A stretch of 64,000 nt of DNA from Macrococcoides canis. Its GTDB lineage: Bacteria > Bacillota > Bacilli > Staphylococcales > Staphylococcaceae. The notes beneath the pieces were generated by a model, which made no database searches, was not told the origin of the DNA, and saw only the letters and a program-made list of their open reading frames with translations. The stretch spans positions 1,550,001-1,614,000 of the forward strand of contig NZ_CP021059.1 of the NCBI RefSeq assembly GCF_002119805.1. The letters are read 5' to 3'. Shown here piece by piece: positions 1 through 3,443 of the stretch. Numbering within the stretch: the stretch's first letter is position 1; each line of letters starts with the position of its first letter. Position numbers and translations under genes: made by a program.

Positions 1-45
1 AGCGCAATACGCTGTAGATAATTTATCGAAGTAAAAATTGAATAA

Positions 46-102: not shown

Positions 103-1467
103 ATGTACACAGCGTTATATCTACGTGTGAGCACGATGGAACAGGCAGATAATAACTTCTCGCTTGCTGCGCAAGAGAGTAAACTACGTGCTTACGCAGA
201 AGCAAAGTCATTAGATAATATTAAAGTGTTCGTTGATCCAGGTTATTCAGGTAGCAATATGAACAGACCTGCGCTCACTCAACTATTGGAATTAGTTAAA
301 CGTAATCAAGTATCAAACATCTTAGTCTATAAACTCGATAGACTATCACGTTCTCAAAAGGATACACTTAACATCATTGAAGATTATCTACTACCACACG
401 ATGCGAATTTAATCAGCTTATCAGAATCATTCGATACATCTACGTCATTTGGTCGTGCGATGATTGGTATATTATCTGTATTCGCTCAATTAGAACGTGA
501 GAACTTTAAAGAACGCTCTCGCATGGGAATGTTACAACGTGCGAAAGAAGGCAAAATCAGTGGATATGGTGGCAAAATATTCGGGTATGATTATATCAAT
601 GGCGAGTTGATTATTAACGATTATGAAGCGATGATTGTTAAGAAGATTTATAACTATTATATTAAAGGGTTAGGTGTAACGAAAATATTCATGCAGCTGC
701 AGAAAGAACACCCTGGTATCATTAAGTCATCACATCATATATGGCAGATATTAAGACGCAGGACGTATACTGGCGATTTTGATTATATGGATGAATCGTA
801 TGAGGGTATTCATGAAGCGATTATCGATAAGTCTATCTATGATCAGGTACAAGTATTAAGGAATAGTCGTAATAGTAAACAGAAGTCTGATGCTGTCTAC
901 ATGCTTACAGGATTAACATACTGCAAATGTTGTGGATATAAAATGCAGGGTACAGTATCAGCATCGACTTATAAAGATAAACATTATAAACGAAGATATT
1001 ATAGATGTAATACGAATAAACGTAATAAAGTGAATAACAACCCTTTCAGATGTGCAACAAAATCTATTAAAAAAGATGAATTAGAACATGTTGTTATATC
1101 GCAAATTAAGGCGCTAGACATTGATTTAAAGATAGATGACATACAAACTAACACAATTGATACTAAAGCCATTGATAAGCGTTTAAATGAGTTAGAAAAA
1201 CAGTCAGAAAAGTTACTGAATTTATATATTGAAGATAGTATCAGCAAGTCGATACTTGACAAGAAGATAGAAGAAATTAATATAGAAATAGAAGCGTTAC
1301 AGAATGTTGAAACAGAAGATAATCAAACAAAATTACAAGCATTAGAAATCGCAAAAGAATTTAACTTTGATAAAGCTACAGATTACGAAGTACAGAACCT
1401 TATACATCTGCTTGTTAAACGTATAGATGTTGATAATTCAAGCGTGGACATCCAATTCATTTTTTAG
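103..1467 (+). CDS. large serine recombinase (phage-type integrase)
   Basis: This 454-residue protein is a site-specific DNA recombinase of the large serine family, which integrates or excises prophages and islands. The N-terminal resolvase domain (about residues 3-145) carries the nucleophile Ser10 in YLRVSTMEQ, then the SGSNMNRPAL and KLDRLSR motifs and the GRAMIGILSVFAQLERE helix. A recombinase domain follows (about 155-260). A zinc ribbon has C274/C277 and C302/C317, and a coiled coil lies at about 345-400. From memory it resembles the integrase of Listeria phage A118 in length and motifs. A strong AGGAGG sits before the ATG. The gene stops only 3 bp from the truncated yfcC reading frame on the other strand, as expected for an integrase gene at its element's end. 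Family is certain; its target is inferred. Confidence 0.93.
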   Translation: MYTALYLRVSTMEQADNNFSLAAQESKLRAYAEAKSLDNIKVFVDPGYSGSNMNRPALTQLLELVKRNQVSNILVYKLDRLSRSQKDTLNIIEDYLLPHDANLISLSESFDTSTSFGRAMIGILSVFAQLERENFKERSRMGMLQRAKEGKISGYGGKIFGYDYINGELIINDYEAMIVKKIYNYYIKGLGVTKIFMQLQKEHPGIIKSSHHIWQILRRRTYTGDFDYMDESYEGIHEAIIDKSIYDQVQVLRNSRNSKQKSDAVYMLTGLTYCKCCGYKMQGTVSASTYKDKHYKRRYYRCNTNKRNKVNNNPFRCATKSIKKDELEHVVISQIKALDIDLKIDDIQTNTIDTKAIDKRLNELEKQSEKLLNLYIEDSISKSILDKKIEEINIEIEALQNVETEDNQTKLQALEIAKEFNFDKATDYEVQNLIHLLVKRIDVDNSSVDIQFIF

Positions 1468-1470
1468 AGG

Positions 1471-2013
1471 TTATTTTATTAGCGCGAACGGATTGATCAT
1501 ACCACCAAGGAATCCAATACCTGCACCAAGAGCTATCATCGCAGCTCCGACCATCGCATCATAACCGAGTGCTGTCGCTAGAGCGATACCAATAGGTACA
1601 AATATAATCGTTTCTTCACTAAGACCAATCGAAAATCCAAGAATACTGAATATGATCATCGTAATTGGAATCAGCCATCTACCATGGCGACCGACGCGTT
1701 CCATAAGCGCATTGACTCCTGTCGTAATAGCATCAGTACGGTGAATTATCCCAAATGCTCCGCCGACAATAAAGATATAGAAGATAATCTCCGCACCTTC
1801 GATTAAGCCGTTCGGTATCGCTCTAAAAATCTCCACAGGTGCGACAGGTGCTTGCGATACATGGTGATAAGAACCATTGATGACCTCTGTCCGGTCTTCT
1901 ACTTTGTGACGTTCAAACTCTCCAGCGGGTATAATATATGTCATGAATGCTGCGAGACAGACAATTATTAGTAACAATAGATATGTATGTGGCATCTTTA
2001 ATCTATCTTTCAT
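1471..2013 (-). pseudogene. truncated YfcC-type membrane transporter, N-terminal part
   Basis: The 180 residues match the beginning of YfcC/DcuC-like carriers (putative basic amino acid or C4-dicarboxylate transporters), which are usually about 460-510 residues long. Membrane segments start with YLLLLIIVCLAAFMTYIIP and continue to GAGIGFLGGMINPF, a point where the family normally runs on. The reading frame instead adds only A-L-I-K and stops, 3 bp from the stop of a converging recombinase gene. The start is secure, with AAGGAGGAG before the ATG at 2013. The 3' portion is not in this window. The simplest reading is that the recombinase inserted its element within the gene, with the remainder beyond the other element end. 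A fixed deletion is the alternative. Confidence 0.8.
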
Positions 2014-2159: not shown

Positions 2160-3443
2160 TTATATATTAAAATTTATTTTTTTTAATTTATCTTTAACTG
2201 CACTAATGAAATACAGACTACCTGTGACAAGCAGTACATCACCATCATAGTTTCTTATAAAATCTGCATAATCTTTTACTTTAATGCGTTTATCATGTTC
2301 AACATGTTCATATAAAGTGTCGAGCGGCAGTGCTTTAGGGAAATCAAATGTTGTCACATAGAAATGCTCGCTTATTTCTTCCAGCGACTTTAACATGCGA
2401 CCGATGGGTTTACCATCGATAGCGGAGAATAATACATCAATCTTATGATCTGCATAATGTGATTTCATCGTATCTACTAACACTTCAATTGATTCAAGAT
2501 TATGAGCACCATCCAGAATAATTGTCGGATGCTCCTGAATCTTTTCAATACGGCCAGTCCATGTTGTATCTTCAATGGCCTGGATCATCTTGTTAAAGTC
2601 CAGGAGAATCATACCTCTATCATACATTTCCAGTAAAGTAGCAATCGCAAGCGCAGCATTTTCCTGCTGATGCGCACCGATCATCTTCAGTTCAATCGCC
2701 TCAAGTTCGTAGGATTTATAACGAAATGTAAATTCATCCCCTTTTTGAACGATTTGAATATCACGACCGAGTTTAATCCCTTTAATGTGCTTTTCTTCTA
2801 CGACACCATTGATATATTCCTTTGCATCTTCATTCTTTACCGCATAGACTAAAGGTACCCCGACTTTAATGACACCTGCTTTTTCTTTAGCAATATCGAT
2901 ATAAGTATCTCCGATAATAATTGTATGATCTAATCCAATCGATGTTAAGATAGACATAATCGGCGTGAATACATTTGTCGAATCATTCTTAGCCCCAAGT
3001 CCTGCTTCAACGATTACAAAATCTACAGGATGTACTTCACCAAAATAAACAAACATCATCATCGTAATAATCTCGAATTCCGTTGCAGTCCCAAGGTCCG
3101 TTTCCACTTCCAGCTGTTCGCTTACCGGCTTAACGATTTCAACGAGCTGAACGATTTCATCATCTGAAATCGGCTGACCGTTTAAACTGATTCGTTCATT
3201 AAACGTTTCAATATACGGACTCGTAAATGTGCCGACTTCATAATGATTAGCTATAAGCGCATTTTTCAGGTAGCTGACAGTCGAACCTTTGCCGTTTGTA
3301 CCTACGACATGGATACCTTTTATGTTGTGCTGTGGATTATCGAGTTTATCCAGCATCCATTCCATACGTTTTACACCAGGTTTAATACCGAATTTATAGC
3401 GTTCATGTATCCAATATAAACTCTCTAAATAATTCATAGTCAT
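2160..3443 (-). CDS. folC: folylpolyglutamate synthase / dihydrofolate synthase
   Basis: The enzyme adds glutamate to dihydropteroate and folates in the cytoplasm, the late step of folate synthesis and retention. The 427 residues show the Mur-ligase-type P-loop GTNGKGST at 48-55, the AKEKAGVIK segment containing the carbamylated lysine of the family, and the C-terminal domain motif ILDGAHN. The ATG at 3443 overlaps the valS stop as TAATG, with AGGAAG upstream, so it is translationally coupled to valS. The valS-folC order is shared with Bacillus and Staphylococcus. Below it the usual neighbours are replaced by the truncated transporter and mobile element. No clear terminator is seen in the 146 bp downstream. 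Confidence 0.96.
   Translation of the reverse strand: MTMNYLESLYWIHERYKFGIKPGVKRMEWMLDKLDNPQHNIKGIHVVGTNGKGSTVSYLKNALIANHYEVGTFTSPYIETFNERISLNGQPISDDEIVQLVEIVKPVSEQLEVETDLGTATEFEIITMMMFVYFGEVHPVDFVIVEAGLGAKNDSTNVFTPIMSILTSIGLDHTIIIGDTYIDIAKEKAGVIKVGVPLVYAVKNEDAKEYINGVVEEKHIKGIKLGRDIQIVQKGDEFTFRYKSYELEAIELKMIGAHQQENAALAIATLLEMYDRGMILLDFNKMIQAIEDTTWTGRIEKIQEHPTIILDGAHNLESIEVLVDTMKSHYADHKIDVLFSAIDGKPIGRMLKSLEEISEHFYVTTFDFPKALPLDTLYEHVEHDKRIKVKDYADFIRNYDGDVLLVTGSLYFISAVKDKLKKINFNI

Follow-up and report, generated by a model that had tools for sequence, protein, structure and literature searches.

Does the serine recombinase gene near the left edge of this region of the Macrococcoides canis chromosome mark the insertion of a mobile element within the neighbouring gene, yfcC? 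We analysed a stretch of 64,000 nucleotides (hereafter the window), which corresponds to G000:C1:1550001-1614000 of a genome, G000, that consists of a single contig of 2.36 Mb. The original prediction, made on the window, was that the recombinase had inserted an element within the truncated yfcC gene beside it, from which it is separated by 3 bp. The short spacing is as described, since three bases lie between the stop codons of the two convergent open reading frames (ORFs). We conclude that a temperate siphophage has almost certainly inserted in the host yfcC gene by means of its serine integrase, at an AA dinucleotide, thereby splitting the gene. The relevant features, in window positions unless a contig is named, are as follows:

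103-1467, + strand: serine integrase ORF (454 aa), a large serine integrase at the attP end of the prophage
1471-2013, - strand: yfcC stub ORF (180 aa), matching DcuC positions 1-180 of 461 (1.4e-29)
1487-2013, - strand: host 5' part of yfcC, 175 codons and the first two bases of a Phe codon
1471-1488, - strand: end of the fused yfcC ORF encoded by the phage (third Phe base, ALIK, stop), counted with the AA that is shared at the crossover
G000:C1:1513660-1514520, same strand as the 5' part: yfcC 3' remainder, matching DcuC 173-459
1-1486, no strand: right end of the prophage, the remainder of which lies left of the window (G000:C1:1514506-1550000)

Family searches of the 454-aa protein identified a Resolvase domain (PF00239, 8.8e-39) at the N-terminus, a Recombinase domain (PF07508, 5.5e-10) and a zinc beta ribbon (PF13408, 2.3e-12), a domain composition that identifies it as a phage large serine integrase. 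Its YLRVST motif aligns with those of the integrases of phages A118, phiFC1 and BL3, and we take the serine in this motif to be the catalytic residue. By sequence comparison the protein is distantly related to all three, with 38.4% identity to the BL3 integrase, 37.6% to that of phiFC1 and 34.1% to that of A118. The label "A118-type" that had been given to the recombinase is thus loose, since by pairwise identity, the measure used here, A118 is not the nearest of these phages to the protein. Close relatives of the integrase were found in none of the eight other genomes of the genus, where the best match has 34% identity (in G003), and in none of the 107 other genomes of the family at E<=1e-60. 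A pattern scan of genome contigs gave 35 matches, none of which is a relative.

If the recombinase had inserted an element within yfcC, the missing 3' part of the gene should lie to the left of the window, at the other end of that element. We detected it there: a DcuC search of the whole genome located the 3' remainder on the same chromosome, with 37 kb between it and the 5' part. Joining the 5' part, up to the AA at window positions 1487-1488, to the 3' part from 1514503 downward yields one in-frame ORF of 460 aa, and the reconstituted protein aligns without gaps over 460 columns to the intact YfcC proteins of three genomes of the genus, with 95.7, 87.2 and 83.5% identity. Rejoining in frame to 460 aa with a gapless 95.7% match excludes chance. 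A truncated ORF alone could mean that yfcC has decayed or rearranged on its own, with a recombinase beside the stub by coincidence. Nothing positive speaks for that reading, and it is refuted by the reconstitution, since the 3' part is kept at the other prophage end and the halves rejoin in frame without a gap; we consider its probability negligible. Hence, the insertion proposed for yfcC is borne out: one part of the gene lies at each end of a 36.98-kb element.

The reconstitution also refines where the gene breaks. It had been described as intact for 180 residues, with a break at GGMINPF and four added residues. The break does lie in the Phe codon of this motif, and ALIK is added, but 180 is slightly too long for the intact part, since the stub consists of 175 of the 460 host residues, then Phe, then the phage-encoded ALIK. 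The best NCBIfam name for the stub is putative basic amino acid antiporter, far below the cut-off (86 of 500 bits). Since the gene survives only as a 180-residue stub and a 3' fragment separated from its start, we expect the lysogen to have no active transporter.

Between the crossovers, the element has a G+C content of 35.7%, compared with 37.2% on both flanks. A simple ORF call gave 58 ORFs of at least 40 aa in and beside the element, including int and the yfcC stub, and we compared 20 prophage ORFs with PHROGs. Matches covered lysogeny (CI-like repressor, anti-repressor, superinfection exclusion), replication (helicase, primase, SSB), structure and packaging (tail proteins, tape measure, tail chaperone, major head protein, minor head protein, portal, terminase large subunit) and lysis (endolysin, holin), and Pfam added the terminase small subunit. 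All the modules expected of a temperate siphophage (for lysogeny, replication, packaging, the head, the tail and lysis) are thus present between attL and attR. The element could instead be defective, or a satellite, given that completeness is judged from gene content; with the main modules present on 36.98 kb, we regard this as improbable, and the element as a complete-looking temperate siphophage by the same measure. When its central 19 kb were compared with phage records by megablast, 44 of these matched; the matches listed, which include the S. aureus phages Sebago and phiJB, cover 7% of the query at ~80% identity. None of 10 prophage proteins compared with anti-phage defence families gave a match. 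One further gene of the element extends into the window:

G000:C1:1549504-1550034 (last bases at window positions 1-34), + strand: phage lipoprotein gene (phrog_4980, 2.9e-53; PF07553, 4.4e-41)

The encoded lipoprotein belongs to the Ltp superinfection-exclusion family, and its gene is situated between those for the repressor and the integrase. Among the tail genes we also noted an ORF of 430 aa with a hydrophobic start (G000:C1:1518578-1519870, equivalent to L005:2578-3870, - strand). It is one of the 20 ORFs compared with PHROGs, has no match there or in PADLOC or Pfam at 0.001, and is possibly a moron.

An insertion within yfcC predicts that related genomes carry an uninterrupted gene, and full-length yfcC was found in seven of the eight other genomes of the genus; the eighth (G003) has no orthologue, only a distant DcuC protein. 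Across the family, a match at 1e-20 is present in 88 of 108 genomes, and 74 of 108, by manual count of the listing, have a yfcC orthologue with at least 56% identity. Of these 74 orthologues, 71 are continuous (57-100% identity), that of G000 alone is split in two, and two (G072 and G074) are shorter, with matches that end at places other than the G000 split. The same truncation without a recombinase, an outcome that would have spoken against insertion, was therefore not seen in any other genome of the 108-genome family listing. We also compared the three flanking genes with those of one relative with an intact yfcC (locus L016), which we take to be radC, comC and folC. The order is kept in G000, with the first two flanking genes beyond the 3' part of yfcC and the third beyond the 5' part. 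The last of these lies in the window:

2160-3443, - strand: host neighbour gene, presumably folC, which also flanks the intact yfcC in L016 (87.9% identity over 422 aa)

Both junctions of the element can be read directly in G000, and the following features surround the one in the window:

1462-1513, no strand: attR, phage half left and host half right, ~50 bp around the crossover, with outer limits set by analogy with A118-family sites, whose half-sites are 25 bp long
1487-1488, no strand: AA, deduced to be the crossover dinucleotide (on the gene strand it is the TT of the Phe codon), with its attL partner at G000:C1:1514504-1514505
1490-1497, + strand: GGATTGAT, an 8-bp stretch that occurs at both junctions (attL and attR), read as an arm similarity beside the crossover

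Immediately before the sequences change, attR reads CGCGAA and attL CGTAAA, so that the adjacent common stretch is only AA, which corresponds to the first two bases of the GGMINPF Phe codon read on the other strand. Our first reading of the junctions was a different one, in which the 8-bp GGATTGAT common to both acts as a direct-repeat core of the conventional type and contains the crossover. At the junction itself no exact match is longer than this stretch, which does not include the AA and would shift the crossover 2-9 bp to the right. In G000 alone, the base that follows the AA (C in attR, T in attL) fits a GGATTGAT core equally well: the C after CGAA in attR is the C in the attP of a related phage contig, L027, and the T in attL is the T of yfcC in several relatives in the genus (for example L017 and L018). 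However, shuffling the two ends (60-61 bp each) 2000 times also produced an 8-bp match in 100 cases, and a search for direct repeats in wider stretches (400 x 600 bases) returned only an unrelated 9-bp match.

What decides between the two positions is evidence from related phages in IMG/VR, together with the symmetry of attP. Three IMG/VR integrases are 92-93% identical to that of G000 (L026, L027 and L028; 92.5% for L027), and a fourth (L029) is 54% identical. In L027, int is followed by a joined attP and then by an apparent lysis end; the L026 and L028 records end at int. We found yfcC in none of the records of L026-L029. A fifth record, the prophage contig L106, has a phage arm followed outward by yfcC residues 176-460, 87% identical to L016. 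The L106 contig does not extend to an integrase end, and its phage arm is almost the same as the one in the joined L027 attP. Only 2.6 kb, in three pieces of at least 200 bases, is common to L106 and the G000 prophage, and we therefore regard L106 as the result of an independent insertion, by a mosaic relative, that is, as a second, largely different prophage at the same point in yfcC.

At its junction, L106 reads GACCGTGAA and then CATAACGATAATATAAACAC, and the L027 attP reads GTACGAA and then CATATCGATAATATAAACAC. From this comparison the host sequence of L106 ends at GAA, provided that its attB, which we inferred from relatives, resembles theirs. The stretch common to host and phage at the crossover is thus GAA for L106 and AA for G000. 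With the same proviso, the phage-type sequence of L106 continues up to GTGAA, so the crossover would fall outside the GGATTGAT stretch. On this evidence we dropped GGATTGAT as the core. The attP of L029, too, has TGGATT after AA.

The symmetry of attP points to the same dinucleotide. We scanned 80 bp around AA for dyads at lengths of n=18, 22 and 25 and compared the scores with 2000 shuffles, using for G000 an attP assembled from its two junctions on the assumption of an AA crossover. The best dyad centre is A|A at all three lengths both in L027 (11/18, 14/22 and 16/25) and in G000 (10/18, 12/22 and 15/25). In L029, with scores of 10, 12 and 15, A|A is tied first at n=18, second at n=22, where a better centre lies 16 bp away, and first at n=25. 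For L027, L029 and G000, respectively, the score is reached anywhere by 55, 68 and 59 of 2000 shuffles at n=25; dyads are weak at n=22 (151, 564 and 582) and at n=18 (759, 970 and 1011). In a wider scan of 140-146 bp, a terminator hairpin outscores the A|A dyad in L027 and G000. The strength of this evidence lies in three attP sites pointing to the same base, not in any single site, and the dyad centre of all three is at A|A rather than in GGATTGAT. Two known sites served as controls: the dyad peak of phiFC1 falls in the annotated core at 1445-1447 (best at n=22 and 25, second at n=18), and that of A118 coincides with GG at every length. The text of PMC3783163 mentions the first G of the crossover site of A118. 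The scan of BL3, whose attP we did not locate, gave no clear peak and was not used. No significant dyad was detected in attB. Thus, attP and attB are non-identical with a short common core, and attP is pseudo-palindromic, each attP dyad being modest (~3% of shuffles at n=25).

G000 alone fits either position, and it is because of L106 and the dyad that we place the crossover at AA (window positions 1487-1488), as deduced from these sequences, and not inside GGATTGAT, a core that we now consider unlikely. The right arms of attP differ beside the AA, reading TGGATTGAT in G000, CATATCGAT in L027 (L027:8447-8483) and TGGATTATT in L029; further out, the arm is well conserved between G000 and L027 and partly so in L029.

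We propose that insertion proceeds as follows. The phage genome would circularise, and the integrase would pair attP, just behind int, with attB inside the GGMINPFTVG codons. Cutting of both sites at the central AA/TT dinucleotide, followed by joining, would split yfcC after codon 175 with no sequence lost, so that the lysogen would keep the 180-residue stub (175 host residues, Phe and ALIK) and a 3' fragment without a start. Excision by the integrase and a directionality factor would restore yfcC exactly. A phmmer search with A118 gp44, which we take to be the directionality factor of that phage, gave nothing convincing (best E 0.011). Regulated gene integrity occurs with other gene-splitting prophages. 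Insertion in yfcC might similarly be a reversible switch, with excision restoring the transporter under some condition, and yfcC a repeated target in the Staphylococcaceae because switching benefits the phage, a combination to which we give very little credence.

The proposed attB coincides exactly with the invariant GGMxNPFTVG codons. When ten YfcC proteins from the family are aligned, no variation occurs at G176, G177, M178, N180, P181, F182, T183, V184 and G185, and the phage would therefore target a site that is widely present in the family. The GGMxNPF form was found in 29 of 30 yfcC loci inspected at the DNA level, and takes the form GGMLNPF in one of the seven genus relatives with an intact yfcC. 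The orthologue at L132 (G009:C11) has GGMINLF instead. Further yfcC prophages were sought in IMG/VR. A tblastn search took 75 loci (L045-L119), without L027, which we checked for yfcC separately; the YfcC protein and C-terminal patterns gave only the L106 record, and N-terminal patterns gave none. An attP left-arm pattern matched 62 contigs, of which only L027 is relevant, and a right-arm pattern matched 15, of which only L106 and L027 are. Searches of phage records for yfcC gave 13 matches each, all with <60% identity.

The phage A118 of Listeria integrates in comK. Its integrase has the same domain order along the alignment, and its attP also has a dyad peak behind int, at the GG crossover; it differs from the present system in its more distant integrase, its target and its core, and in that we found no convincing gp44 relative here. 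The integrases of phiFC1 (Enterococcus, EFC-1) and BL3 (Brochothrix) are similar to the present one over their full length. In phiFC1 the attP core lies directly behind int, as here, but the attP sequence is another one, and the annotated core is ACT rather than AA. DcuC/YfcC proteins often carry the name C4-dicarboxylate transporter, so the target is probably not wholly new: the S. pseudintermedius phage phiVB16-Pro3 and a relative in NA45-ST84 have a prophage site that the text of PMC8297860 assigns to a C4-dicarboxylate transporter. The host genus there is Staphylococcus, unlike here, and the likeness is one of gene name in that text. The Macrococcus prophage sites reported in PMC6008420 and PMC12016501 are comGC, tsaD/ABC transporter, tRNA-Leu, tRNA-Arg, downstream of glnA, and rpsD; neither main text contains the word yfcC. 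A search of the open literature for prophage integration in yfcC returned no paper that deals with phage sites, as judged by title and abstract, a weak absence that covers open papers only. The suggestion that the attachment site may be new thus holds against the main texts of the two Macrococcus papers and is weakened by S. pseudintermedius, where, going by the gene name in the text, the gene family has probably been reported already. The prophages described in those Macrococcus texts, phiMC1 and phiMP19Msa1099a/b among them, are also temperate siphophages of the genus, and those in comGC also inactivate a host gene. In kind, then, the present case is ordinary, a gene inactivated by a phage with a large serine integrase; its address is little described.

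A metabolic transporter is hereby added to the genes interrupted by prophages in the genus, and no principle is changed. The locus provides a serine integrase for which both junctions are read directly, the crossover is deduced to lie at AA, and a further insertion occupies the same point. Since attB lies in a motif that is invariant in the ten aligned YfcC proteins of the family, the integrase is a candidate integration tool for Macrococcus, and perhaps for Staphylococcus. Elsewhere on the chromosome, G000:C1:40148-42965 contains two adjoining large serine recombinases, 33% and 28% identical to the prophage integrase, which are possibly the ccrA/ccrB pair of an SCC element.
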